A stretch of 64,000 nucleotides of DNA from Amphiura filiformis. Its lineage: Eukaryota > Echinodermata > Ophiuroidea > Amphilepidida > Amphiuridae. The DNA is taken from NCBI RefSeq assembly GCF_039555335.1, contig NC_092628.1:96173782-96237781 (forward strand). Reading direction: 5' to 3'. The position numbers were made by a program, and so were the translations under genes. How positions within the stretch are numbered: the stretch's first letter is position 1; every line of letters starts with the position of its first letter. This document shows positions 5,779 through 42,510 of this stretch, one piece after another. The notes below the pieces were generated by a model. It searched no databases. It worked only from the letters and a program-made list of their open reading frames with translations, and was not told where the DNA came from.

Positions 5779-7291
5779 GATGATGATGGTGATGATGGTG
5801 AAGATGCGGAATTTGAACCATCCGATCACCTGTATATCATACATGTCTTTATTTTCAGTGCTTTCTGCCTGATTTTAGCCATACTGATGTTGTCAGGTGC
5901 AGCTCTTGACGTCTTCCAGAAATACAAGAAAAGAAAGGCGATCGACGATAGTAAATTACGGTTACCATCCCACCAATCGTATGGCAGTACAGGAGAAACA
6001 AAGGGCGTAACCATGATAACTGATTCTTCACTTGAAGGAAAGGAACCTTTGATGGATCATGAAGTCAAAAATGTTGAGCGTAGCTCTTCAACAATAACTG
6101 GTTCTAAAACAAGTACGTTAATTAATTAGTTAATTAAATATATATTTACATTATTTGTACGATTTTATTTGATTGATTGATTAATGTCAATCGATCGATC
6201 GGTCGATCGATTGATTGATTTATGACTAATTGAATAGCTAATGTGAGTTGATTGACGTGACGTGACTCAAATGACACTTGTCAGAATGGTCGACTGCAGA
6301 TCCGTCGGATAACGCTTTTTCAATGGGAAATGAACTTTGCTGCTTGGATGATGTCACGATGAGGTTAGCATTTATTCCGTATTGAAAAGCGTGTTCCGGC
6401 GGATATGCACTCGACCGGCCTCTTGTACAATGGTTTGAACTCAATTTGGTGCTTAGATTAACATGATTAACATAGTATGAAGGAATCGCAACTTCTCATG
6501 TGCTTGTGAGAGAAATAGTGATCGTGTACCTGGATATACATGTATTATAGAACTTAAATGACACTTGTTTAATCGTTTAAACTCAATTTGGTGCTTAATG
6601 GATCAGAGAAGGAACCACATCTTTTCGTATGCTTCAGAAATGGCGATCGTGTACCTTTATCTATACATGTGATTATAGAACTTCAATGGTGATCCACTCT
6701 ATTATAATGTATTCTTATTTGCAGGTATGCTTCAAGAAATTGTTCTGTGTTTTGCTTTCAATCGAAACATATCCAAACTTCTGGATACCACCATTGGTCA
6801 GTCTCAATCAATTGGATGTCTGCATGGTATACGTGTTATCAGCTTAACATGGGTAGCTCTTGGACATACGTTTATGTTCAATTTTCTGATTGGAATAGGT
6901 TTGTATACAAGAAGATACAATGTTTTATTTTGTATTTATTTACCCATATTTACATGAAATGGAAACGCTTGTCACAGGTTAAATTACTATACTATTTTCT
7001 ATATTTACCCGCCTAGAAAACATGCCTGAGGCACTTGTGAATATACTTCCCAGTTTCTTCTTTCAAGCTGTTGGCAATGCATATTCGTCAGTGGACACGT
7101 TCTTCTTCATGAGGTATGTTTTTATTCAAAGAAAATATAAATGACGTTTAAGAACTTAATTAACTTTGACCCGTCGGACTTTTTCCGGAGGGAGACATCG
7201 AATGAGCTTTGATTTGGGGTCAAAGGTCATGTAAAATTATTATTATTATCATTATTATTATTATTATTAGTGTTATTATTATTATTATTAC

Positions 7292-7382
<91 letters not shown>

Positions 7383-10300
7383 GTGGATTCCTACTTTGCT
7401 ATTTGACATTTACCCGGATGGCGAAATCCGACGGGAAAATTTCATGGCTTCTTTTCTACTTTCATCGAATATGGAGGTTTGTTATTTTTTTCATAATGCT
7501 ACAGAATATACGCTCTTTGCGCTTTGTAAGATATGTTTGCACGGATGCGGCTTCAGACAATCTATATACCGATAAGAGGCGTAATTCTCCCCCCCCCCTC
7601 TCTCTCTCTCCCCCTCTCTGTCCCTCTCTCACTCCCTAACTCTATCTCCCCTCTTCCCCCCATTCCCTCGTTCTCTATTAAAATGATTTCATTATCAGCA
7701 TGTTTCTTCTGAGTACACAGGTCACGGATTTTTGTTTGATTGTTTCATTTTCAGAATCACTCCATTGTACGCATTTGTTATCCTTTTCATTATCTACCAT
7801 CATCCATACTTCGGAGATGGACCCAAGTGGTATCAAGTTCTTTACGTGGATTCTCTATGCGAAAAGTATTGGTGGCGAAATCTTCTTTACATCAACAATT
7901 ACTTCCCATTTACAGATATGGTAACTTTATCATTCGATTTCCTAATAGTCATATATTATATGAATATTAGTGTGCTTTCATAATCCATTAGGCTTAGATC
8001 ATAGCGCGGATATCAGAATCAGCTCACTTCCCCAGGACAGTTCTTGGATTGTGAAGTGACTGCGAATTACAGGCATATATAACTATGTTAACCGACGGCG
8101 TCCCCTCCACAGGACGGAGAACTCTCAAAGCTCATTTTATACAACTCTAAATGTTGTATACATGTTCGTTAGGCGGGGCTTTCAGTTAATTTAAACACAA
8201 TTTCAGGCACGTCAAAAATGGAATCCGCAAGATATTACGCGAACGTCATGATTATGTTGATTCCTTTTGTTTCTTTTCAGTGTATAGGGTGGTCATGGTA
8301 TTTGTCATGTGACATGCAATTTTTCATCATATCTCCGTTGATCCTACTGCCTTTATTCAGGTATGAATTAATTTATAATGAATATAATATAATATGCACA
8401 TTATGATGACTACGACTACGACGACGACTACAAGACGACGACGATAAATGATGATGATGATGATGACGCCCTAGGGTAACGCTTGTGGTGCTTAGGGACC
8501 GTTCACAAAAACTTGTTAGGGGGGCTTGATGCATACAATTTTCGGGGCCCCTCGTTTCAGATCTCAAAAATTTCAGGGCCCCCTTTTTGACATGAAAATT
8601 ATGGGTCAACCTCATAGAAAAGCATATTTTTCCCGGGAAAATTTGTGGTCATTTTTTCAGGGGCTACCTTAGAAGGGTCAAAACTTTTAAGGGCTCCCCT
8701 TTTTGCATCAGTCCTCCGTGTTTGTGAACGGTCCCTTAAGTTGATAATATTATAATGGCGATAGTTTAATGTTTTACTTCTTACACACAGGTCTCAAACC
8801 GCTGGTATACTTGTTTCCTCCGTCTTGTTCTTCGCTAGCTTGGTGGTAACAGGTTCTTTGATTGGCAAGAATCACCTGGCAACAAGTGTCATGTAAGTGT
8901 GCTAACACTATTTTGAGGTTTTTTGACAAATAATCGCATAATTAATAGTAGAGCTGTGTTTTTAAATCATAACGTAACGAAATTCTGACTTAAATAGAGC
9001 TAAATAAACCTGAGGTTTGATTTATTAACATGATTAAACACATAACACGTAAGAGGAGAAGGGTTGATTTTTAAAACCATAACATCCCTAAATTTCCTAG
9101 CAAACACAAACCGTTTTTAACGCTTTTAAACATGTTGGGTTTTGGTAAAAACGTTTAATAACATTGTCTAGTCTTATAAAGGTCATGGAAACGTTTTGAA
9201 ACTTTTTGTATGAAAACACTATACAGCAACATTTTTGAAAATGTCAAAATGATATTGCAAAATATTTTTGCAAACATTCTTTTGCCAAATATTTCGTCAA
9301 CACTTAAATAACATTTTGTTAGAATATTTTGCAGTAACTTTTCAATAACGTTTTTGAATGTTATAAAAACGCGTTATGCCCTTTATACACTCTTTATATA
9401 TTGAACCAGACATTTGAACGTTTTCTGGCAACCTTTCCTAACCTGTTGCGAATAATGTCGAAAATGTTTTATGTTTGCTGGGTTAATCAAAATTGATAGT
9501 TCGGAACATAATTACGCAAACGTTACTGCGAAAATTTAACAAAAAGGACCTCATACAGGAAAGATTGAAAGATGGTTATAAAAACGCTGAGCGTAAGTAC
9601 AGTATTTGCCACATATGTCACATCCCAAAATGTATTGCTGATGTTGATCCTTCATCTCTTTAAAACACAGATCCGCGGATCCTTTTTCTCCAAAGAACTA
9701 CTTGGAACTGGTATACCTCCAACCATACTCACGAATTCCTGCTTACTTAATAGGAATAATCATGGGTTACATTATGTACAGGCAAATAAGTGAACATCAC
9801 CGCATACGCCTTTCTTCCGTAAGTGAAATATCGACTTATTCTAGTTACTATTCTAGTCTTAACACGGTCAACGAACATTCTCCGTTGACAAACCTTTTCA
9901 TATTGTAGCCTCAATTGATTCATTCAGCAATAAAATAGTTGAACCAACGTTGGTAAAGGTTGGCACAAAAATAGTGATATACCGTGACATATCCATGCTC
10001 CTGAATATTTTATTTTTTATTTCCCACCTTCTTTAGAATATTGTGTCTGTTGATGGGCTTTAGCATTTGCAGTAGGTGTAAGCGTCGTATATGGAACATA
10101 TACTAGATATGGCGATGTAATGTTACAAAGTGAATGGAGCAACGCAGCAAATGTCTTGTATGGGACTTTCGGCAGTGTTGGGTGGTCACTGGCTTTGTCG
10201 TGGGTCGTATTCGCTTGCTATTACGGATATGGAGGTAAGATACGTAAGGTTCACACCTTGGTTTCATTATCATGAGGTATAGGACTTTTTATTTTTTCGG

Positions 10301-13300
10301 AGAAGAGCAGGTAGGGCAACTACTTGATTATATTTCTACATGTTCATACTACATGCTCTGAAAATTTTAGAAAATTCGCACGAGTCCGTTTTTTTAAAAT
10401 CACATATTTGTTCCTAAAATGGGGGTTATAGCGCCCTCAACGGGCACTCTCTCCATAGGGCTACATGTAAAGACCAGTTATAGACAAATGGCCCTAAAAT
10501 AAAACGGACTCGTGCGAATTTCCTCAAATTTTGCATATGATGTAGATTTAACATCTGGAATGTAATGCAAGTGATGTCGTTGCTGCTCTTCTATATTCAT
10601 TTTTAAAATGTCCGCCCCAGACTAATTCACCTGTCATGTTGTTTTTCTTTAATGAAATTATATTTGGGAGCCTCCGCCAAAGAAACAAAGCTCAACTAAA
10701 TTTTTTAGAAGTTGCCCGAATTAGCATAAATTAGCACCAAAGTTCCTTGAAACACCGCTCATAATGATGATAGATTTCTGGAGACCAGATCTGATTCAAG
10801 AGACCAGCGATAAGAGATACAAAACTAGAGAAGGAACACTACCCAGTCCGAAACTGATTTGATTGGTGCCCATCAGTAGATTGCCACATCCCAATGCAAC
10901 TTAAAGAGCCACTTTATGGACATTCAATGATATAATGTTACATCATTTTTGAAGAAGCAATAATCATTTTGATTGAGATTCACAACAAAGCGAGACAGGC
11001 CCCTCTATAACATGCATGCAGAATCATTTGTTCAAATCAGTCTGGTCCAAGGTATTATGGCCACTGAACAAGCTTTCAACATCTGAAATGTGTTTTGATG
11101 GAAATTTGAAGTATATGCATTTATTTTAAGTTGGATTAATGACTTTCTGTGTTGGTCACTCTGGATGTCATTGAGTAAGTTTAGCACTAAACCTATTACC
11201 AATCATATCCACAAAATCGAGTAGGTTGACTTTATCAGCGTATCCCGTACATGGGCTGGTTATAAAAACCTATTACCAATCTATCCATCATCATATCGTG
11301 TATCTATTTCATTTCTTTCAGGTTGGATTAATGACTTTCTGTGTTGGTCATTCTGCACACCATTGAGTAGGTTGACCTTCTCAGTGTAACTCATACATGG
11401 TGTGGTTATACAAACCTATTTCGAAGCATATCCATTATCATATCGTGTATCTAATATTTCATTTATTTCAGGTTGGATTAATGACTTTTTGTGTTGGTCA
11501 TTCTGGATACCATTGAGTAGGTTGACTTACTCAGCGTATCTCATATATGGTCTGGTTATACAAACCTTTAACCTATTTCGAAGCATATCCATCATCATAT
11601 CGTGTATCTATTTCATTTATTTCAGGATGGATTAATGACTTTCTGTGTTGGTCATTCTGGATACCATTGAGTAGGTTGACCTACTCAGCGTATCTCATAC
11701 ATGATCTGGTTATACAAACCTATTTTGAAGCATATCCATTTAATATCATATCGTGTATCTATTTCATTTATTTCAGGTTGGATTAATGACTTTCTGTGTT
11801 GGTCATTCTGGATACCATTGAGTAGGTTGACTTTCTCAGCGTATCTCATACATGGGCTGGTTATACAAACCTATTATCAAGCATATCCATTATCATATCG
11901 TGTATCTATTTCATTTATTTCAGGTTGGATTAATGACTTTCTGTGTTGGTCATTCTGGATACCATTGAGTAGGTTGACCTTCTCAGCGTATCTCATACAT
12001 GGTGTGGTTATACAAACCTATTTCGAAGCATATCCATCATCAAGCCATATGTCGATGATGTCATCCGTAAGTTGTTTGATTTGCACTATAATTTGCCTTC
12101 TTTCTTGCTGTTGCATATACACATTATGATACATACACACATTATGATACATGCAACAGGCTATACATCAAAGCACCCCACCTACTACACCCGTATTTCC
12201 ATGCCCACCCCAGCCCACCCCCACACACCCTCCAAGCAAAAAGCATCATTGACCCCTCTTGCCCATGATTGATACTAGTATTACATCCGGTAAAGGCCAT
12301 TTACTAATCTGCTGATTAATGATCCACCATAGACTTGCAACAACATAGCTTGCAACAAGATGTATGGCAATTTCTACATGATCTACATATTTGACAGCAT
12401 CACTTTTTCATGTACTATCATTATGATGTTAGTTAATGTGACGTATCATTAATTGTCGCACTTCCCCTTGCACTTCGCAACACTATAAGTATAATTATAT
12501 AAATGGAACCACTTAGAATCTCATTTCTATGGAGATCTATAATACCTATGACCATAATGACTCCAGCCAACCTAAACGTCTTTTATGAGGAAAAGTCAGA
12601 CCGCTGTCTCGCATGTGTTGGAAAGGGTAACTTGCAGCACATTCTGAGCGCTTGAGATGGAAGCATTAGCGTATCATTTTGAGGAAAACCCAAGAAACGG
12701 TCACTATACTCGGGTTTCGCCAAATCGGGTAGCAATTCTGGGGTTTTGCAGTCCATTCCTAAGAATGGGCAGCAACATTGTATAACCTCCGAATCTTGGG
12801 TTTAGTCAAGCAAAACTCGAATTCGGGTAGCGATTCTAGGGTTTTGAAGCCCATTCCTAGGAATACCCCGCTAAACCAGGGTATAACCTCGGAATCTTAT
12901 GTTTAGCCCGGCAAAACTCAAATAGGGGAGCAATTCTAGAGTTTTGAAGCCCATTCCTAGGAATAGCCCGCAAATCCAGGGTTTAGCTTCTGAATCGTAG
13001 GTTTAGTCTGTCAAACTCAAATCGGGAGTTTTGAAGCCAATTCCTAGAAATAGCAGCAATACCATAGTATACATTTGAGTTTTGCTGAGGCATTCCTTAG
13101 TTTACGGTGCAAAACCCAGGAATGGGCTGGTAAAACCCGGGTATAGCAGCAACCGATTCTTGGGTTTTGTTCAAAATGATAGCGATACTGATACACTTGG
13201 CACCAGTCAGTGACGTAAATAACGATTAACTTTTGCAGCACTACGGTATAAGTATTATAGAGTACCGAAGTGTGACGTCATAAAATTTTCTTTTTTGTAT

Positions 13301-13943
13301 TTCAGCATTTTCATGATCATATTTCAGTAGAACATGATGAAAAACATCCACAGTCCAAATTTGGTGGGAATCGGATCATGAGGCCCCGAGATATGCCCGC
13401 ATGAATACCTAATTAGCCCCTTTGAAATCAGTGTAAATTGGCCTGGTTCATAACTGTTTGGAACCAGGCCAATTTACACTGATTTCAATGGGGCTAATTA
13501 GGTATTCATGCGGCCATATCTCGGGCCCTCATGATCCAATTCCCACCAAATTTGGACTGTGGATGTTTTTCATCATGCTCCACCTTCAAAACGCTGAAAT
13601 GCAAAAAAAGTTTTTTGTGACGTCATCACTTCGGTACTCTATAATGTACTCCAGTCTAACAGGCAATTCTTGAAAATACTATTAATTTACTCTGAGGTTG
13701 GTTTATCTGGACAAAGACCACCATCAAAATAATCCAAAATAACCTGTTTTTTGTTTGTTATTCCAGTGTTATATCTTTTGTGGCAGTGTGATGATTTCTT
13801 ACGCATCTGCAGGTTTACTCTCCATAGCTGTTGAATATCCATGCGCAGGATTGGAAAAACTGATGTTAAGAAAAGAAAGTCAGTGTTCCAAAGACATAGA
13901 TGAAGAAAAGTCATGTCACCAGAAAAATGTAACAAAAAGTTAA
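1982..13943 (+). CDS. NRF-6-like acyltransferase-3 membrane protein, copy A (5' end missing; one frameshift)
   Basis: This is the span of the upstream paralogue, assembled from 14 exons: 1982-2127, 4587-4662, 5459-5570, 5859-6112, 6725-6898, 7017-7113, 7384-7476, 7755-7920, 8281-8360, 8791-8892, 9671-9818, 10037-10234, 11924-12066 and 13767-13943. The product order is a Cys-containing NRF domain (LDAFGK...GNFEWLGDYDEC), a first membrane helix (FCLILAILMLSGAAL), a cytosolic linker, then an acyltransferase-3 domain with an R-X10-H motif (GIRVISLTWVALGHTF), VDTFFFMSGFL, WWRNLLYINNY and GWSWYLSCDMQFF. Family members (C. elegans nrf-6, Drosophila drop dead) are multi-pass proteins linked to lipid or yolk handling; the reaction here is inferred. 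The N-terminal exon matching 20905-20970 is not in the window. A missing G near 10052 shifts the frame in exon 13, so the copy is either a recent pseudogene or contains a sequencing error. Confidence 0.85.
2478..3860 (-). mobile_element. decayed LINE (RTE-like endonuclease and reverse-transcriptase remnants)
   Basis: On the minus strand, fragments in several frames read in LINE order. First comes endonuclease (KILFSGRPSG then ENGVAVIL near 3690-3740). Next is the endonuclease C-terminus (NTCFKHQRNLYTWKLPGERQ, RNQIDYTVMKRRWKSN, near 3480-3580). Last are the end of the RT region (MAKGRMIELQDLWNDRNLAT, then SVLLYGLTGWTVTKADENR, about 3110-3270) and a tail (YLGHILRGSVS, near 2600-2650). Most of the RT is deleted and there are frameshifts, so it is dead. 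The clade is judged from motif resemblance to RTE/BovB-type ORFs and is not certain. It sits antisense in the intron between copy A exons 2 and 3. Confidence 0.8.
2748..3099. mobile_element. 352-bp insertion in the LINE with 8-bp target duplication (hAT-like)
   Basis: The block is bracketed by ATTTCAGC at 2740-2747 and again at 3100-3107. Removing it with one duplicate rejoins the LINE reading on the minus strand (VLAAEI then WFWRRRLNISWKN), which proves an insertion. Its ends (ccccgg... and ...gccccgg) are only loosely inverted. Inside are repeated gggtctttcggagct motifs. An 8-bp duplication is typical of hAT elements; no transposase is present. Confidence 0.8.
4266..4440. repeat. G-rich GGCG(T)AGC-end dispersed repeat
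   Basis: It begins ggcgacgccagg and ends cgtagcgccgccactgg, with long G runs between. The same ends and G-rich interior recur at 75-141, 19029-19445, 24625-24856, 33350-33508, 34123-34380 and 56158-56292. No coding capacity. Confidence 0.6.
4587..4662 (+). CDS. copy A exon 3
   Basis: Borders are aaacag|CTC and AAAT|gtaagt; phase 0 in, phase 1 out. It encodes LKYGVCVPDVCSEDQIIQNV then DNLTK. The CVPxxCS pattern is the conserved cysteine motif of NRF domains. It is 76 nt, identical in length to copy B exon 3. Confidence 0.93.
4737..5180. repeat. tandem repeat of about 140 bp, about three copies, carrying AGGTCAAAGGTCA
   Basis: Blocks with 'cttctcccacaaat', 'acttgcacacat', 'ggtcaaaggtcat' and 'acttccggtataaaac' recur with spacing of about 137-146 bp in the intron before copy A exon 4. 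Each unit has a direct repeat of AGGTCA (or GGGTCA) spaced by one base, at 4837, 4974 and 5120. Confidence 0.8.
5459..5570 (+). CDS. copy A exon 4
   Basis: Borders are atacag|CA and TTTTAC|gtaagt; phase 1 in, phase 2 out. It encodes IPELQFLSLVTPMYADSPVN then CQHFPQRPYDAGFICFT, the end of the extracellular domain. It is 3 nt shorter than copy B's 115-nt exon 4. Confidence 0.92.
5661..5777. repeat. (ATA)n trinucleotide microsatellite
   Basis: About 115 bp of near-perfect AAT/ATA repeat sits just upstream of the acceptor of copy A exon 5. The poly-Leu and poly-Ile open frames here are artefacts of the repeat. Confidence 0.97.
5859..6112 (+). CDS. copy A exon 5: first membrane helix and cytosolic linker
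   Basis: Borders are ttttcag|TG and AACAA|gtacgt; phase 2 in, phase 1 out. It encodes FCLILAILMLSGAALDVFQK, a hydrophobic helix followed by the basic stop-transfer stretch YKKRK, then a Ser/Thr/acid-rich linker. Copy B's exon is 12 nt shorter, the difference falling in the linker. Confidence 0.93.
6164..6230. repeat. (GATT)n / (CGAT)n microsatellite
   Basis: gattgattgattaatgtcaat and cgatcgatcgg runs lie in the intron after exon 5. The same intron of copy B also carries GATT repeats (29092-29200), so the microsatellite probably predates the gene duplication. Confidence 0.85.
6725..6898 (+). CDS. copy A exon 6: R-X10-H catalytic segment
   Basis: Borders are ttgcag|GT and GGAATAG|gtttgt; phase 1 to phase 1. 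It encodes LCFAFNRNISKLLDT and SIGCLHGIRVISLTWVALGH. The Arg and the His eleven residues on form the R-X10-H pattern of acyltransferase-3 proteins in the first helix of that domain. Confidence 0.95.
7017..7113 (+). CDS. copy A exon 7
   Basis: Borders are gcctag|AA and ATGAG|gtatgt; phase 1 in, phase 2 out. It encodes NMPEALVNILPSFFFQAVGN then AYSSVDTFFFM. VDTFFFM joins SGFLL in exon 8 to give the family's conserved VDTFFxxSGFL helix. It is one codon longer than in copy B. Confidence 0.95.
7236..7382. repeat. (TTA)n microsatellite abutting a splice acceptor
   Basis: About 145 bp of TTA/ATT repeat runs into the terminal TAG of the intron, so the acceptor of exon 8 lies within the microsatellite. 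Copy B has the same arrangement at 30914-31050. Confidence 0.97.
7384..7476 (+). CDS. copy A exon 8
   Basis: Borders are attatag|TGG and TGGAG|gtttgt; phase 2 in and out. It encodes GFLLCYLTFTRMAKSDGKIS then WLLFYFHRIW. The fragment FHRIWR-ITP continues into exon 9. It is 93 nt, as in copy B, with a single residue difference (A for T) in the part compared. Confidence 0.95.
7755..7920 (+). CDS. copy A exon 9
   Basis: Borders are tttcag|AATC and GATATG|gtaact; phase 2 in, phase 0 out. It encodes ITPLYAFVILFIIYHHPYFG, GPKWYQ and CEKYWWRNLLYINNYFP. The C-x(3)-WW-x-NLLYINN motif is diagnostic for NRF-6-like proteins. Confidence 0.96.
8281..8360 (+). CDS. copy A exon 10
   Basis: Borders are ttttcag|TGT and TTCAG|gtatga; phase 0 in, phase 2 out. 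It encodes CIGWSWYLSCDMQFFIISPL then ILLPLF, matching the family's C-x-GW-x-WYL-x(2)-DMQF motif and the next helix. It is 80 nt in both paralogues. Confidence 0.95.
8496..8738. mobile_element. short TIR element (MITE), TTA-flanked
   Basis: The ends gggaccgttcacaaa and tttgtgaacggtccc are inverted, each next to TTA (ct-TTA- style flanks). The interior is non-coding, with ggggcccc-type runs. The TTA duplication would suit a PIF/Harbinger-like origin; this is inferred. It lies in the intron after copy A exon 10. Confidence 0.7.
8791..8892 (+). CDS. copy A exon 11
   Basis: Borders are cacacag|GTC and GTCAT|gtaagt; phase 2 to phase 2. It encodes SQTAGILVSSVLFFASLVVT then GSLIGKNHLATSV, a membrane helix. 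It is 102 nt in both copies. Confidence 0.93.
9099..9482. mobile_element. TIR element with ends agcaaacacaaa / tttatgtttgct
   Basis: Inverted ends near 9099 (agcaaacacaaaccgttttt) and 9460-9480 (aaaatgttttatgtttgct) enclose an AACGTTTT-rich, non-coding interior. The structure is that of a MITE in the intron before copy A exon 12. Confidence 0.6.
9671..9818 (+). CDS. copy A exon 12
   Basis: Borders are acacag|ATC and TCTTCC|gtaagt; phase 2 in, phase 0 out. It encodes NYLELVYLQPYSRIPAYLIG then IIMGYIMYRQISEH. The QPYSRIPxYLxG motif matches the family's K/QPYxRIGPYLVG. Confidence 0.95.
10037..10234 (+). pseudogene. copy A exon 13, with one-base deletion
   Basis: Borders are ctttag|AATATT and GGAG|gtaaga. 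Compared with copy B exon 13 (199 nt) it is 198 nt. Copy B has gttggatgg where this copy has gttgatgg, so one G is missing at about 10052. The resulting frame meets TAG at 10061-10063. The rest of the exon, read in the restored phase, still aligns well (SEWSNA, LYGTF, WVVFACYYGYG). It is either a recent null allele or a base-call error. Confidence 0.88.
10361..10535. repeat. inverted-repeat element with cgcacgagtccg ends
   Basis: aaattcgcacgagtccgtttt near 10375 is answered by aaaacggactcgtgcgaattt near 10500. The arms are about 30 bp around a 100-bp non-coding loop. It is a MITE-like structure. Confidence 0.65.
11131..12066 (+). repeat. 147-bp tandem array of partial exon 14 plus intron end (six units)
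   Basis: Units start (ttggattaatgac or equivalent) at 11131, 11323, 11473, 11627, 11778 and 11925. Each unit carries tttcatttatttcag, then most of exon 14, and passes into the next unit at cgtgtatctatttcattta without a GT donor. The basic unit is 147 bp (49 codons); extra bases are +42, +3, +7, +4 and 0. Unit 1 has lost its AG, unit 2 has an in-frame TAA, and units 3 and 4 run out of frame. Units 5 and 6 are open and in frame. Confidence 0.92.
11924..12066 (+). CDS. copy A exon 14 (last unit of the array)
   Basis: This is the only unit with both borders: tttcag|GTTGG and TCATCC|gtaagt. It enters in phase 1 and leaves in phase 0, 143 nt as in copy B. It encodes WINDFLCWSFWIPLSRLTFS then AYLIHGVVIQTYFEAYP, the conserved PLSRLTxxAYLxH segment. 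An alternative start at 11777, using the acceptor of unit 5, would add 49 residues in frame. Confidence 0.9.
12690..13150. repeat. degenerate tandem repeat of about 100 bp
   Basis: gttttgaagcccattcctag and variants recur at about 12743, 12841, 12941 and 13028, with accompanying caaaactc and gggtttag words. It is non-coding and lies in the intron before copy A exon 15. Confidence 0.75.
13251..13650. mobile_element. 400-bp foldback (palindromic) element
   Basis: Two arms of about 195 bp are near-perfect reverse complements around a short loop at about 13450-13462 (ggttcataactgtttggaacc). The outer ends are gagtaccgaagtgtgacgtca and tgacgtcatcacttcggtactc, with TATAG/CTATA at the border. There is no coding sequence; it is a MITE or foldback transposon. 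It lies only about 115 bp before the last exon of copy A. Confidence 0.85.
13767..13943 (+). CDS. copy A exon 15, with stop codon
   Basis: The acceptor is attccag|TGT. It encodes CYIFCGSVMISYASAGLLSI then AVEYPCAGLEKL and a polar tail, ending in TAA at 13941-13943. The last membrane helix and the EYPxxGLEK motif are typical of the family's C terminus. It is one codon shorter than copy B. Confidence 0.93.
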   Translation, partial: CYIFCGSVMISYASAGLLSIAVEYPCAGLEKLMLRKESQCSKDIDEEKSCHQKNVTKS

Positions 13944-15847: not shown

Positions 15848-17128
15848 GAGGTAAAGTTTGACATATCAGATATCGCACGACTCTGTGGTATATTTGGTTA
15901 ACAAGATAGAGGGTTAAATGCACAAAGTGCTATATCTCATTAACCAATGATCCTACAGAGATGTGAGCACTGACTTTTTTGTTCTTTATGACCAGAGGAA
16001 AAGTTTGACATATGGCACGACTCTGTGGGATATTTGGTTAAAAAGATAGATTGTTAAGTACACAAAGTACAAAAAAGTGACTATATCTCATTTACCAATG
16101 ATCCTACAGAGATGTGACCACTAACTTTTTTGTTCTTTATGACCAGAGGAAAAGTTTGACATATCGCACGACTCTGTGGGATATTTGGTTAAAAAGATAG
16201 AGGGTTTGGTGCATAAAGTACAAAAAGTGACTATATCTCATTAACCAATGATCCTACAGAGATGTGACCACTGACTTTTTCGTTCTTTATGACCAGAGGA
16301 AAAGTTTGACATATCGCACGACTCTGTGGGATATTTGGATAAAAAGATAGAGGGTTTGGTGCATAAAGTACAAAAAAGTGACTATATCTCATTAACCAAT
16401 GATCCTACAGAGATGTGACCACTGACTTTTTTGTTCCTTATGACCAGAGGAAAAGTTTGACATATCGCACAACTCTGTGGGATATTTGGTTAAAAAGATA
16501 GAGGGTTAAGTACACAAAGTACAAAAAGTCACTATATCTCATTAACCAATGATCCTACAGAGATGTGACCACTAACTTTTCGTTCTTTATGACCAGAGGA
16601 AAAGTTTGACATATCGCACGACTCTGTGGGATATTTGGTTAAAAAGATAAAGGGGTAAGTACACAAAGTACAAAAAAGTGACTATATCTCATTAACCAAT
16701 GATCCTACAGAGATGTGACCACTGACTTTTTGTTCCTTATGACCAGAGGAAAAGTTTGACATATCGCACAACTCTGTGGGATATTTGGTTAAAAAGATAG
16801 AGTGTTAAGTACACAAAATACAAAAAAGTGACTATATCTCATTAACCAATGATCCTACAGCGATGTGACCACTGACTATTTCGTAATTTAAGACCAGAGG
16901 AAAAGTTTGACATATCGCACGACTCTGTGGGATATTTGGTTAAAAAGATAGAGGGTTTGGTGCATAAAGTCCAAAAAAGTGACTATATCTCATTAACCAA
17001 TGATCCTACAGAGATGTGACCACTGACTTTTTTGTTCCTTATGACCAGAGGAAAAGTTTGACATATCGCACAACTCTGTGGGATATTTGGTTAAAAAGAT
17101 AGAGGGTTTGGTGCATAAAGTACAAAAA
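15848..17128. repeat. 150-bp satellite, about 8.5 tandem copies
   Basis: gaccagaggaaaagtttgac recurs at 15990, 16141, 16291, 16442, 16591, 16741, 16892 and 17043, that is every 149-151 bp. Each unit holds atatcgcacgactctgtggg, atatttggttaaaaagatag and ctatatctcattaaccaatg. Copies differ at only a few positions. The array lies between the two paralogues. Confidence 0.97.
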
Positions 17129-23900: not shown

Positions 23901-26900
23901 CGACTATGGCATAGTCTAGTGGACAGGGTGAACGAAGTCCATGCGCCCCGGAGGTTCAGAGGCCCCGAGCACGAAGGAAAGAAAGAAACACAAATGAAAA
24001 TATTCTGAAGTGCAAGGTCGAAAACAATTCAAACTTATATTTAAGCCATAATGTACGATCTTTTAAAATGAGTTTGGTCAATTTTTTTCAAACCTGATTT
24101 TTTGGCATTTTGTAATATTAGTGTGATTTTAGGACAACAGAGCACGTTTGAATTAACATGATTAAAGGATTCAGTAATAAGGAACACTAACTATTAATTA
24201 AAACGCAAAAGTGCATGGTAAAAGGAGCCCTGTACACAGGAGTGTACGTTAAAATTTCAATGTCAAATATTTCTATAGAAATATAATGGGCCAGAACAGG
24301 CAAACATCTGAATTTCACAGCAATTCATTGACAGGGAATGATTCATATCCCCGGGATTTATGTATACCTTTTTTTCAAAGGTGTCCATGAAAAGAAGCTT
24401 GAATAATTTCTTTGTATTTTTGCAATGATTCAATGACCCGTGAATTCTGCATAGCTAACAATTAAATTCGTTACAGGTAGCTATGAGACTATTAAAGTGA
24501 CGATGAAAAAAAAGTGCTATTACCGCACCACAGCTGAACCATGGGACTTTGGCCCTGTCACCGGGGGGGGGGGGTCATACATTCTTGGGATATCTAAATA
24601 TGAAAAGGACCCACAATAAGAATGTTGACCGGAGTCTTATGAAGTGGTGGCGCTTGAAGGGGGGGGGGGCAAGGGGTATTTTTGCCTCCCCAATATTTTT
24701 ATTGCCCCCCTTCCGACTTTTGAGGCAAAAACCCCAACAATTACGTAAATTTCTACTTTTTGCTGTAATTTTGTGCAAAATGTGTCGATTTTGCCCCCTG
24801 AAATTCACCCCCACCCCACATGCCCCGAAAAAGGATTCCTGGTACAGCCACTGGTCTTATGAGGAGTGTCTCTCCCGGATATTATTTTTTTTATCATATT
24901 CTTTACTTTTTTCTCTTTCATTTGACAACACTCAGAGGGTCATACCTTCTTGGCATTTTGAGATATTGACCCGGGTCTTATGAGGAGTGGGAAAATATTT
25001 TTATTATATTCTTTACTTTGTTCTCCACTTGACACCACTTGGGGGGTTCATACCTTTGTGGCATTTCGAGATATGAAAAGGACACAAAATAGGAATATTG
25101 ACCTGGGTTTCATGAGGAGTGTCACCCCGGAGGGGAATATAATTTCAAAAAATTCTTAACTTCTTTCCCTTTCATTTGACACCACTCGGGAGCTCATACC
25201 TTCTTGGCATTTCGAGATATGAAAAGGACCCAAAATATGAATACTGACGCAGGTTCTATGAGGAGTGTTACCCCCGGGTGGGAAAATTATTTTTATTATT
25301 TACTTTGTTCTCTTTCATTTGACACCACTCGGGGGTTCATACCTTCTTGGCATTTGAGATATGTAAATCACCCATATGACTATTGACCCGGGTCTTATGA
25401 GGAGTGCCACCCCGGGTTGGGAAATATTTTTATTATATTCATTACTTTTTTCTCTTTAATTTGACACCACTTGGGGGTTTATATCCTTGTGGCATTTCGA
25501 GATATGTCCATTTCAGACCAAATGGTTAGTCAGTAAGTAAGTAAGTAAGTAAGATACACTAATGTAGGCTGATACCATTACTTCTTCCTCAGTCATCAAA
25601 GTTTCAAAGATTTGGGCCAAGGATGATAGACATAAGCAAACATACAAACAATAAATTAATTTGCATAGTTTACCAAATTAATTCAGACAAAATAGGTAGA
25701 AAATTAAGTTATTTTTACTTCAAAATCGTCCGGAAATGGTTTGTAATTGTGCGCACTGAAAATAAAAATGTGCAGCTTGTGCAGTTTTTTATTGGTTATT
25801 TCTAGCCCGGCGAGTTAGGTTGCCTACCCCTGTACTATATTGATGAGCATGACACTCTCATCATGAATGATATTAAATTCACAATATGTTGACATAGAAA
25901 GAGGAATGGTTTATTTACGCACGTTTTTATACCCCATTCGCAAGATTCGGCAATGTCGTTCAGTAAATTTTTTCAAGAAAATGGTTTAATTTAAAAGTTG
26001 CAGTTTACAGCGATCATTAATATCTTACGCAAGCATAGATACATATAAAACCCGCCATTATATTCGCGCTTAATTCAAATGAAAGCCATAATTTGTGATT
26101 TGCTCCGCAGCAACGCCCTCAATTTCTTTTTCGAATTTCTACTTTTTGCACCATTGTAATGGCCATTGGTGCACATAAATGCCCTGTGAATGACTAAGCC
26201 TACAGTAATTACAGTAAAATTTAACATTTATAATAACACAACATAACGCTATGAGGCTTTGTATTCCACTCATTTATACCATTTTACTGATCAAGTAACA
26301 TTTTCACTGCGCAAACTTGGCAGGACGTTAAAGGATATCGAATTGCATTCTGAATACGAAGAATGTCCTTCTGATATCAAATAATTTTGATCTTTTGAAA
26401 TTCGCAATGTAATACACATTTTATGGCAAATCATTAAAAATTGATATTTTTGATATTTAACAGTACTCGAAGTAAACTTTATAAATTTGATGGTTTATAC
26501 TTAAAGTGTATGTAGGTGGGATGAAAAGCCGACGATCAATTGAAAATTTTGACCTTTCGTATTGAAGATATGGATTTCCCAAAACACCAAACAAAATTAG
26601 GTCTTTTTGGGAAAAAAATCCATATTTTCAATATGAAAACAAAATTTTCAATTGATCGTCGGCTTTTCCTCCCACCTACACACACTTTATGAATATATCC
26701 TTAGATTTATAAAATTTACTTCGAGGACTGTTATATCAAAAATGTGAAAAATATCAAATTTTAATAAAATTTGTATTATATCGTGAATTTCAAAAATGAA
26801 AATTATTTGATATCAGAAAGACATTCTTCGTATTCAGAATGCAATTCGATATGTCTGATGTGCTCTCATGTCCCACAAAAATACTGTCGAAACGCTCTAA

Positions 26901-29900
26901 ACGCTCATTCCGATCCCTTCATGATTTCGAATGTTTGGGCGGCTTTTAAATAATAAAAATGCTTAAAATGTTTCAAAATACTTATCATTTCAACCATATT
27001 TCATTTCAGCACTAGATGCATTTGGTAAAGTGCCTGCTGGTGTTTTGGTCGGAAATTCCGAATGGTTGGGAGACTATCATGAATGTACATCTCTTCAAGG
27101 CTTACACTACTGCTCCATCAACTTTGGAGTTAATTCATCTAGCCTTGGTCTACGTGTACCGGTAAACAAAAAAATGGGAGGGAACTTTTTAGGAACTTGG
27201 AGCGTGAGATTTTTAGCAGTTTAGGGAAAGTTGTTCTTTTCTTTTTGAGATAAAAAAGGGCTATTTGGGTTGGGGTGTTTTTGCATATTATTACGCAATA
27301 TGGTGTAGAAAGTAAATACATTGAAGTGTTTAAAACACATTAAAATTATATTTGGAATCTTAGATTTAACTATTTAGGCCCTACATGGTTCGATGTGAAC
27401 AATTCCAGTGAAAAATTATGTTGACCACTAGTGTAGTGGTGAAACGTCACTAAAATGTGAGTAGTCAACATCATTTTTCACTGGAATTGTTCACAACGAA
27501 CCATGTCATGCATGTTAACAGTTAAATCTAACATTCCAAATGAACCTGTTCAAAGATTAGGTCTACTAGTATTAACCATTGTTTTAAGCCCCCGTTTTAA
27601 TACGTTTAATACACAGTTGCAGCTCAAGTATGGCGTGTGTGTTCCCAACGTGTGTTCAGAGGATGAAATTATACGGAATATAGACAACCTTACACAGTGT
27701 ATGTACACTTTTTATACGATCAGGGAATTTAAATAAGGGAAAGGAATGTAGAATGACATCACCATTCAATTCATTGTTCAATAAAGTAGAAAAGCTTCTT
27801 TTGTAGAATTGAATCTAAAAAAGAACCTTTTCTACTTTATAATTATGTTGATCGTGTACTTTTAAAACTGTTTGCTATTGTCTTACAGTTATACCGACCG
27901 AGTACCGCTTTCTGGACTTAGTGACGCCCATAAATGCAGATACACCAGTTAATTGTCAGGATTTCCCACAGAGGTCTTATGATGCTGGATTTATATGTTT
28001 CACGTAAGTATAATACTATATAGAATAGTAAACGGACATCTAGGCTTTATAGTAGGCATACTATATCCACTAAATCTTGAGAATACTTGTACAAAAATTA
28101 TGATTCCGAATTTGAATATAATGTTTCATTTTTTGCAGTGTTTTCTGCCTGATTTTAGCCATTCTGATGTTATCAGGTGCAGCTCTTGACGTCTTTCAGA
28201 AATACAAGAAAAGAAAGATGATCAACGACAGTAAATTACGGTCGTCGTCCTACCCATCGTATGGCAGTACAGGAGAAACCAATAACGCAGCTGATGCTCC
28301 ACTTGGAGAAGATGAACCTTTAATGGACCGAGCTAAAAATGTAGAAAGTAGCCGTTCAGAAACAGGTGGTTCTCAACCAGGTACGTTTAGAAATCCTGCT
28401 GGGCTGCTCACAATGTCATCGGAATGCAATAATCTTGAAATCATGAGGAGGCCCTATGTCACTTGATCGATAACGCAAAGTATCCTTAAAAACAAATTAT
28501 TTTAGAATATCTCCTGAAATTCAGTGTTACCTTGCGTTTTTCCGGAAAATTTTCCTTTGCGAAAAAAAATTTAAAATCTTTCTCGTTTTGATTTTTAGAA
28601 TCGTAGATAGCATATTACTTTTGGGCTTGGAGATAAAAAAAAAGATAAAAATTCAAATCGACGCGAGTTCCTCAAGTGCGTGTGGTCGGTCCGTCAATAT
28701 GTGTATGTATCAGGTACACAGCAAATTACTCCCACCCTGCCTGCCAGGTGATTTTACGTGGAAATTCACTCGCGCAGCTCAAGCAAGAGGCCCTATGTCA
28801 CTTGATCGATAACGCAAAGTATCCTTAAAACAACAAATTATTTTAGAATATCTCCTGAAATTCAGTGTTACCTTAGAATATCTACTGATATTTTCCGTTA
28901 TTTTAGAGAATGTTGTGAATTTTTGTGTTTTTTTACAATATTCTTGTCTTTTCTTAGGTTTTATTAAAATGTTTCGTTATTTTGCGTTATCGATCATGTG
29001 ACATAGGGCCTATGAGGGAGACTGTCTCTTAGTCTCACTAGTCTCATATCCCTGGTCTTACTTGATTAATACTTATTAGATTACTTATTAGTTTTGATTG
29101 ATTGATTATTAGTTTTGATTGATTGATTATTAGTTTTGATTGATTGATTAATAGTTTTGATTGATTGATTATTTGATTGATTGATTGATTGATTAGGTTA
29201 GTGACGTTGCTTACAAGTACACTTGGTCAAACGTTAATTACTCAATGTAGTGCTTGAAATAGGGCAGTGTAATTCTCAAACATATCGATAAATTATTGAT
29301 ACTCAAATTGGAACCCTATGGATATGATCAGCGAAGGAACCACAATTTACTTCTCGTATGCTTGTGTCAGAGACAGTGGTCGTGTACCTAGCTAGACTGC
29401 TCTGCATTCCCTTTTTAAATAATTCATACCATTCCATGCATAAAAGACAACATATCCCCAGTGACTGCCCTGCCCAGAGATAGCTGGCTGTAGGATCAGA
29501 ACAGTGTTAGAGGGATGCTAAATTAAAATGGTCTACTACAGTAGGCTAGTACCTAGCTGGATCTAATTTATAAACTTCAATAGTCTATTGCTTTTTTTCT
29601 TTTCAGGTATGCTTCAAGAAGTTCTCCTGTGTTTTGCTTTCAATCGAAACATATCCAAACTTCTGGATACCACCGTTGGTCAGTCTCAATCCATTGGATG
29701 TCTGCATGGTATACGTGTTATCAGCATAACATGGGTTGCTCTTGGACACACATTTGGGTTCAGTGTGATGTCTGGAATAGGTTTGTACACAGGAAGATAT
29801 TATAAAAAAAAGTAATTTGTAACTTTGCTTTTTTGACATTTTAGATTTACCTATTTAATTATGTAATTTATTTTGTTTATTTTAATAATGTTATTTATTT

Positions 29901-30913: not shown

Positions 30914-30979
<66 letters not shown>

Positions 30980-30995
30980 GTTGTTGTTTGTTATT

Positions 30996-31048
<53 letters not shown>

Positions 31049-35019: not shown

Positions 35020-38000
35020 CGATGATGATGATGATGACATGATGATGAAGATGGTAATGAGGAGGAGGAGCAGGAGCAGGAAGATGAGGAGGGGAGGAGG
35101 ATTATGATTATGATGACGCTTATAATTATCTTCATGATATTGAAACTGAATATTATAACGGTCAAATTTTAGAGTTTTACTTTTTACACACAGGTCTCAA
35201 AACGCTGGTATACTTGTTGCCTCCGTCATGTTCTTATCTAGCTTGGTGGTAACAGGTTCTTTGATTGGCAAGAATCACCTGGCAACAAATTCCGTGTAAG
35301 TGTGCTGGTGCATATTCAACGCCAAAAGTAATGTCAAAACTATCAGAGTGACCATGAATGTGCTAGTAAACTGCACAAATGGCAAACGTGAAAGTGTGTA
35401 CAATTTTACAGGGCCTCAACTTTCTGTGGAGTTGATTCGTCGTTTCGCGAAGAAAAAACGTTGGTTTGTAGGTTTTACAAAGGCACACCACGAGCTGTGC
35501 TTTATTTCTTGATATGCACCGCTCTCAAGATTACTCTTTAAAATTTTCCGATTTGATATTCAATCAAAAAGATTGATTTTTCATTCTTTTGCCGATTGCA
35601 GTTATTAGGGACAAATCGTTTCGACCGAATATTCAGTCGAATGATTTGAATTGTCAATCTTTTTAATCAACCAACATGACTGATTCTCAATATTCTAACA
35701 ATTTAGGTTAAGGGAACTGGAATGTGCGTTTTGAGCGTTTCGACAGCATTTTTGGTGGGACATGAGAGCACATCAGACCTATCGAATTGCATTCTGAATA
35801 CGAAAGATGTCTTTCTGATATCAAATAATTTTCATTTTATGAAATTCACGATATAATACAAATTTTATGACAAATTATTAAAATTTGATATTTTTCACAT
35901 TTTGAGATATAACAGTCCTCGAAGTAAATTTTATAAATTTAATGATATAGTCTTAAAGTGTATGTAGCTGGGAGGAAAACCCGACGATCAATTGAAAATG
36001 TTGACCCTTCATATTGAAGATATGGATTGTTTTCCCAAAAAGACCCAATTTTTTTTGGTGTTTTGGGAAAAAATCCATATCTTCAATACGAAAGGTCAAA
36101 ATTTTCAATTGATCGTCGGCTTTTCATCCCACCTACATACACTTTAGGTAGAAATCATCAGATTTATAAAGTTTACTTCGAGTACTGTTAAATATCAAAA
36201 TATCAATTTTAATGATTTGCCATAAAATGTGTATTACATTGCGAATTTCAAAAAATCAAAATTATTTGATATCAGAATTCCATTCTTCGTATTCAGAATG
36301 CAATTCGATATGTCTGATGTGCTCTAATGTCCCACAATAAATACTGTCCAAACGTTCATACCCCTTCCCTTAAGGGAAAAATTGCGATTTAATATTCAGC
36401 CGAACAGAATGGTTGAAAATAGCCATTATAAAAAGTCTTAAATCTCATTCTAACCGTAATGCATGGCATTTGGCAGTATAATACATTGGGAGTAACACTT
36501 GATTTGATGGCGAAATCAGAGTCCATTTAAAAATCTATTTGAATCTATTTTTCAATTTTTTAGATTGAAATATTTTAATCAGTCAATTTAAGAGGACAGG
36601 ATTTATGTACTAGACACTCAAATTGCCGTAGCCTGACTTCCAACACTAACCGTTGGCCCATCGTCTCTTTGAAACACAGATCTCTACAAAACGGCTTTTC
36701 TGCTACGAACTATCTGGAACTGGTATACATCCAACCATACTCACGAATTCCTACTTACTTAATAGGAATGATCATGGGTTATATTATGTATAGGCAAATA
36801 AGTGAACATCGGCGGATACGCCTTTCTTCCGTAAGTCAAATATCTAATATAAAACTTTCTGTTCAATATGACACTATCACTCATGACGAAAGTTCTTGCA
36901 GACATTCTCACCAAGTCCATGTGCCGATATAGGTGGATACCACCAATTTCCTCCACCCGCTCCGCTCTTTTTTCTTAAAAAAATAAATATCATAAACCTT
37001 TCTTGAGATCTTTATTAATTCCCTTCATTTCCTTATGGATGTTTGCTTTTAATTTCTCACCTTCTTCAGATTATTGTGTCTGTTGGATGGGCTTTAGCAT
37101 TTGCAGCAGGTATTAGCGTCATATATAGCACATACACCAGCTATGGCAATGTGACATTACAAAGTGAATGGAGCAATGCCGTCAATGTTCTGTATGGGAC
37201 TTTCAGCAGATTGGGATGGTCACTGGCCTTGTGTTGGGTCGTATTCGCTTGCTATTACGGCTATGGAGGTAAGATACTTGGCGTTTGCTTTTCCTGATGT
37301 ATTTCTTTAATATATAGATTTATTTTTGAGTAGGTTGATTTACTCATCGTATGTCATACATGGTCTGGTTACTTAGTATATAAAACTATTACCAAACATA
37401 TTCATCATCATATCGTGTATCTATTTCATTTATTTCAAGTTGGATTAATGACTTCCTGTGTTGGTCATTCTGGATACCATTGAGTAGGTTGACTTTCTCA
37501 ACGTATCTCATACATGGTCTGGTTATACAAACCTATTATCAAGCATATCCATCTTCATATCGTGTATCTATTTCATTTATTTCAGGTTGGATTAATGACT
37601 TTCTGTGTTGGTCATTCTGGATACCATTGAGTAGGTTGACTTACTCAGCGTATCTCATACATGGTCTGGTTATACAAACCTATTATCAAGCATATCCATC
37701 GTCAAATCATATTTCGATAATATCACTCGTAAGTGGGTTTGTTAATCATTCACCTTCACTCAATAGCCTCATGATATACGCAATCACATCTGAACTGGAC
37801 CCAGCTCTTACATTGACTAGGCTCTTCCAAACCCGAGGTTTTTGAATATTTTAGTAATTTTAACTGTCATGAATGGTAAGTCGAAAGCAATGTATTAAAT
37901 GACTTTACTATAAAAGCATAATTTAAAATTCACCGTGCATCAGGATACATCTACATTAAACGCAACTACACCAGTAGGTCTGCCCTTACTCACACGACAT

Positions 38001-41979: not shown

Positions 41980-42510
41980 GTCTAAAATGGGCATATCTCA
42001 AAATGCCACTAAGGTATGACCCCGTGAGTGGTGTCAAATTAAAGAGAAAAAATAAAGAACATAATAGGCTATAATATAAAATATTTTCCCACCGGGGATG
42101 GCACTCATAATAAGCCCTGGGTCAATATTCATATGGTTCTTTTTATATCTGAAAATGCCAAGCAGGTATGTACCCCTGAGTGGTGTCAAATGAAAGAGAA
42201 CAAAGTAAAAAATATAATATAAATAATTTCCCCACCGGGGTTCACACTCCTCATAAGACCCGGGTCAATATTCCTATTTTGGTTCCTTTTCATATCTTGA
42301 AATGCCAAGAAAGTGTGGTCTCCTGAGTGGTGTCAAATGAAAGACAAAAAAGTAAAGATTATAATTAAAATAATTTATTTCCCAATTGGGGGTAACACTC
42401 CTCAAAAGACCTGGGTCAATATTCATAATTGTGGGTCCTTTTTAAACCTTGAACTGCCAAGAAAGTATGACCCTCTGAGTGGTGTCAAATCAAAGAGAAA
42501 ACGCCCACCT
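41980..42510 (-). repeat. 143-bp repeat family, inverted relative to 24580-25510
   Basis: gagtggtgtcaaatgaaaga, aatgccaagaaagtatgacc, ggtcaatattcatat and actcctcataagaccc recur with gtggtgtc at about 42029, 42180, 42328 and 42479. These are reverse complements of the words in the 24580-25510 array. Confidence 0.88.

Follow-up and report, generated by a model that had tools for sequence, protein, structure and literature searches.

The locus described here raises the questions of how the spliceosome chooses among several acceptors of identical sequence, and of whether tandem arrays that carry such acceptors feed new coding sequence or new introns into a gene. It lies within a window of 64,000 nucleotides (the whole stretch of DNA that was analysed; GC content 37%), in which a repeat made up of an intron's 3' end and the first part of the following exon is present in several head-to-tail copies.

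Host genes

The window contains two neighbouring paralogues, here called genes A and B, both of which carry the array. The gene models cover ten exons each, from exon x5 to the last, and all nine introns between them are bounded by GT-AG in both A and B. The product of gene B from x5 onwards matches Acyl_transf_3 (PF01757; E 1.1e-25, 90.9 bits against a cut-off of 31), and a single 53-aa exon further upstream in the same gene has a match to the NRF N-terminal domain (PF20146; 33 bits, cut-off 27). Because of these two matches both genes look like NRF-6-type Acyl_transf_3 acyltransferases, with the Pfam domain evidence coming from gene B. A Pfam search of eight ORFs from the window, among them three that contain A or B exons, gave no match above cut-off and two weak matches in one ORF. 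There were 0 matches to Rfam at the gathering threshold, 0 in a tRNA search, and no match in a plasmid collection.

Exon x12 of gene A (10037..10234, + strand), which directly precedes the array, is 198 nt long compared to 199 nt in gene B, and the frame is thereby shifted. When gene A is read from x5 as given, the frame stops after 294 aa, ahead of the array, and none of the six AGs listed within 9990-10110 that were tried, the usual one included, restores an open frame for x12. This 1-nt difference may reflect a pseudogene, a broken allele, or a base error. Among the other features of the two genes, we note an inverted repeat of approximately 400 bp that lies in the final intron of A (13254-13645), and a near-palindromic element of approximately 600 bp that is present in two copies, one before gene B (26335-26919) and one within it (35710-36358).

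A tandem array across an intron-exon boundary in gene A

There is a tandem array in gene A, detected by TRF as a repeat with a 147-bp consensus at 11219-12042 (score 1296, 5.5 copies, 89% matches), and a unit of approximately 147 bp recurs head to tail from about 11103 to 12042. Alignment of the units of both genes shows that a full unit comprises 28 nt of the intron end, including the AG, followed by 119 nt of the next exon, and the acceptor region with about 120 nt of exon described for each unit in a first-pass annotation of this DNA is thus borne out. That annotation had counted six head-to-tail units in gene A. The exon start is indeed found six times, but the first of these units consists of two truncated pieces, such that the array has seven pieces, two truncated (A0 and A1) at the 5' side and five full (A2-A6).

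All seven are in the + orientation. A0 (11103..11215, ends approximate) is internally truncated and its exon would start at 11131, whereas A1 (about 11216..11293) is truncated at its 5' side and is without an acceptor. These are followed by A2 (11294..11441, with the AG before 11322), A3 (11442..11595, AG before 11472), A4 (11596..11748, AG before 11626), A5 (11749..11895, AG before 11777) and A6 (11896..12042). A6 holds the genuine acceptor before 11924 and runs on into the 143-nt genuine exon (11924..12066, + strand), which has a GTAAG donor at 12067. The unit length of 147 bp given in the first-pass annotation agrees with the TRF consensus, but only the A5-A6 spacing is exactly 147, the three other full-unit spacings being 150 (A2-A3), 154 (A3-A4) and 151 (A4-A5). 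Likewise, the acceptor said to be kept identically from the second to the sixth unit is present as an exact TTTATTTCAG in four of the five units A2-A6, with A2 having TTTCTTTCAG instead; after the acceptor, A4 continues with GA rather than GT. Further tandem arrays with periods of 143-152 bp are present in the window at 15924-17128, 24988-25506 and 41993-42501, of which the second and third are inverted relatives of each other.

A second array in gene B

A second array of the 147-bp unit, overlooked in the first-pass annotation, is present in the paralogous gene B, where the repeat is detected at 37326-37708 and three aligned pieces span 37310-37704, all in the + orientation. B1 (37310..37410) is 5'-truncated and has no acceptor, and B2 (37411..37557) has an AG that is shifted by one base and is out of frame, its frame being otherwise open. 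B3 (37558..37704) holds the genuine acceptor before 37586 and runs into a genuine exon (37586..37728, + strand) that is again 143 nt long, with a GTAAG donor at 37729. The junction between units is identical in the two genes, with exon sequence ending in CA followed directly by TATCGTGTATC.

Splice signals and reading frames

Considering both arrays, an AG is in place in six of the ten pieces (A2-A6 and B3), is shifted in A0 and B2, and is absent in A1 and B1. Gene A has five AGs upstream of the genuine acceptor (in A0 and A2-A5), four of which are disabled for in-frame use, leaving that of A5 as the only frame-compatible one. These earlier units had been described as blocked by a lost AG, a stop, or changes of frame, and this is correct for A2, which has an in-frame stop, and for A3 and A4, which are out of frame. 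The AG of A0, however, is not lost but merely lies one base off, in the sequence TTTTAAG followed by TTGG, and it is out of frame. The single upstream AG of gene B, in B2, is disabled for in-frame use in the same manner as A0. Within gene A the only acceptors giving open frames are those with exon starts at 11777 and 11924, and use of the A5 acceptor, as had been proposed, would add exactly 147 nt, or 49 codons, with no stop before the genuine exon. Since gene A is frameshifted before the array, a feature likewise overlooked in the first-pass annotation, the choice of 11777 or 11924 leaves the product of the given sequence unaltered. Acceptor strength fails to single out the last acceptor, because A3-A6 and B3 carry an identical 10-nt acceptor. 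Conservation is not significantly higher in the acceptor tails than in the exon parts of the units, with variable columns numbering 2 of 28 and 22 of 119, respectively (P 0.25).

The donors have a simpler distribution. On the + strand, the pattern GT[AG]AG occurs only at 11175 and 12067 within 11117-12080, and only at 37729 within 37300-37745. A0 contradicts the assertion that a donor is confined to the last unit, since it carries a consensus GTAAGT at 11175; together with the AG at 11130 this bounds a possible 44-nt exon (11131-11174) that ends with TGA. A0 is alone among the units upstream of the genuine exons in having a GTAAGT-type donor, and there is none in the upstream units of gene B. 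Whole-exon duplication would place an acceptor and a donor in each copy, and this is not what the GT[AG]AG scan reveals; the acceptor and the 5' part of the exon have been copied, and the full upstream units are without a strong donor. The first-pass annotation was right to set the structure apart from whole-exon duplication.

Unit divergence and probable exchange between genes

The seven full units (A2-A6, B2 and B3) differ from each other by 2.7-10.2% in the 21 pairwise comparisons. A5 differs from B3 at four of 147 positions and from B2 at six, compared with seven differences between A5 and its neighbor A6. When the repeated exon is set aside, the nine remaining modelled exons show differences between the two genes at 54.5 of 270.3 synonymous sites (approximately 20%; dS 0.235), and the binomial probability of four or fewer differences in 147 is 5e-10 at 20% divergence and 7e-4 at 10%. 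Protein constraint is a poor explanation for the likeness of A5 to the gene B units, since B2 is without an in-frame acceptor, and coding selection on the upstream units A2-A4 was rejected, as these have a stop or frame-changing lengths.

A5, B2 and B3 cluster in 195 of 300 bootstraps, which is moderate support. Among the seven full units, 11 of the 21 pairs of informative columns do not fit a single tree, although the columns of one incompatible pair are just 2 bp apart and repeated mutation is the better explanation for that pair. The end pieces A0, A1 and B1 have ATTACC in common, whereas the seven full units have other states.

Between the genuine exons of A and B there are 7 differences in the 119 positions belonging to the unit and 7 in the 24 just beyond it (Fisher P 0.0025), and the exon preceding them differs at 28 of 181 (P 0.016). 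The likeness of the genuine exons alone is not special, because only 12 differences are present in the opening 124 nt of the exon that follows, and the dS of the genuine exon, 0.144, falls within the spread of values for the other exons and not below several of them (x5, 0.149; x7, 0.051; x9, 0.131; x10, 0). Per-exon dS between A and B spans 0 to 0.416, such that conversion is possible elsewhere in the two genes too. Four residues encoded within the unit distinguish the two genuine exons (F/Y, V/L, F/Y and E/Q), and both states of each are found among the gene A units. Homology of A and B in the intron just before the arrays is weak, with 177 of 5000 shuffles reaching the score, and so is the case for orthology of this intron segment. 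An (ATT)n microsatellite immediately precedes the corresponding exon in A (7236-7381) and in B (30914-31048), and adjoins the low-divergence exon x7. In exon x10 (8791-8892 in A, 35194-35295 in B), the two genes differ at 0 of 26.7 synonymous and 9 of 75.3 nonsynonymous sites.

The comparisons of units point to unequal exchange together with gene conversion, acting inside each of the two genes and probably also across the pair. We favour an arrangement in which the inner units have been homogenised by unequal crossing-over and conversion, with the end units left out. Independent recent amplification in A and in B is not favoured as a whole, because the junction is common to both arrays and A5 is nearer to B3 than to A6, but it could account for inner units other than A5.

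Origin and consequences of the arrays

The most likely reading, to which we assign a probability of about 80%, is that the array is a minisatellite straddling an intron-exon boundary, of the kind named 'mirage' in lancelets, in which the units are homogenised and the intron is lengthened with little other effect. The last ~28 nt of the intron and the first 119 nt of the exon would have been duplicated head to tail, and the common junction suggests that this had a single origin, either before the duplication that gave A and B or with later transfer between the genes. The array would then have changed in length, and its units appear to have been homogenised within and probably between the genes. 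The upstream copies would be part of the intron, and the last acceptor is most likely the one used, because the strong donor beside it is the only one with which the frame stays open. The array would lengthen the intron, and the protein is probably unchanged. Occasional use of an upstream acceptor would yield mostly frameshifted or stopped RNAs, and A5 alone could add 49 residues, were the frame of gene A open.

If the A5 acceptor were used at times in a functional manner, the product would be an acyltransferase with 49 extra residues repeating the PLSRLTFSAYLIHG segment, and the intact acceptor of A5, its exact 147 nt spacing and its open frame into the genuine exon are all consistent with this. 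However, gene A is frameshifted one exon upstream in the given sequence, and B2, the matching unit in gene B, has its AG out of frame. Nor is an extra membrane helix evident in the 49-residue copy, as a Kyte-Doolittle scan of the A5 copy found no window above 1.2. Lancelet mirages are reported to be regularly spliced though many of their repeats keep splice signals (PMC3087553, PMC3902484), and we give the longer isoform very little credence. Alternatively, the arrays could serve regulation through unproductive splicing, with the upstream acceptors, or the 44-nt piece at 11131-11174 with its own donor, directing transcripts to nonsense-mediated decay. A0 does pair an AG with a consensus donor and end in TGA, and A2-A4 and B2 yield early stops, but the donor is present in A0 only with none in B, and decayed units are the expectation under neutral drift; a role in decay is very unlikely.

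Tandem arrays assemble badly, and an aberrantly assembled mirage in a genome draft was reported in the lancelet globin paper (PMC3087553), so that misassembly of the array, or of its length, has to be considered; the 1-nt deletion in gene A could also be a base error. The units nonetheless carry unit-specific indels in addition to their 2.7-10.2% divergence, and gene B has an independent array with the identical junction, which makes an assembly artefact quite improbable. A further scenario is that the intronic units are a store of exon variants, from which conversion transfers 147-bp units between A and B as well as to the genuine exons, so that a conserved C-terminal segment is reshuffled. 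We regard this as unlikely, if conceivable, and prefer the minisatellite reading, under which the practical weight of the arrays is small unless upstream acceptors are used.

Comparison with known systems

Several systems have features in common with the arrays in A and B. In human segmental-duplication genes, exon-intron boundaries are reported to carry internal tandem repeats, which vary among paralogues of recent origin (PMC2812944), and the A and B arrays are similar in both position and variation between paralogues. The human case includes transcript-backed novel introns, whereas the A and B copies seem to lie within an existing intron. In a potato RdRp gene, an intron was reportedly gained by tandem duplication spanning the border between an intron and the exon downstream of it (PMC4974935). 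The duplicated stretch crosses the same type of boundary here, but in potato a donor in the copied exon piece made the new intron, and the full units of A and B are without a strong donor. With mutually exclusive exon arrays such as that of Dscam (PMC3236188), they have in common the presence of tandem copies of exon sequence in one gene.

The structure in A and B is not of a new kind, as mirages have already been described. The term refers to tandem repeats over an exon-intron boundary in lancelet genes, and was applied to Adh3 and the globins BflGb6 and BflGb9 (PMC3087553), with troponin C (TnC) and PGBD5 added by PMC3902484. Somatic instability of the Adh3 mirage is attributed to Canestro et al. 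2002, as cited in PMC3087553. The BflGb6 unit joins the 3' end of an intron to the 5' part of the exon that follows, is 150-160 bp long, and is present in six and three copies in two haplotypes; it is described as undergoing concerted evolution from which the boundary units are excluded (PMC3087553). These copy numbers, together with seven pieces in A versus three in B, make the suggestion that the array is a hot spot for length change a plausible one.

The arrays in A and B differ from the lancelet mirages in that they are in two linked paralogues that seem to exchange units, and in that the host is an NRF-6-type acyltransferase. Exchange of units between two linked paralogues is not mentioned in those portions of the literature covered by a narrow search, and we do not claim that it is unpublished. 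The acyltransferase gene pair joins the described mirage loci and provides a two-gene setting for asking whether paralogues can trade units through such arrays; should the host be something other than a lancelet, it would be a mirage outside of the cephalochordates. As in the lancelet mirages, the repeat spans an intron-exon boundary, and many, though not all, of the units keep splice signals. The inner units appear homogenised and the end units divergent, as seen in the distribution of ATTACC, the mosaic units and the moderate grouping of A5 with the gene B units, and the end pieces A0, A1 and B1 resemble the excluded boundary units of BflGb6.
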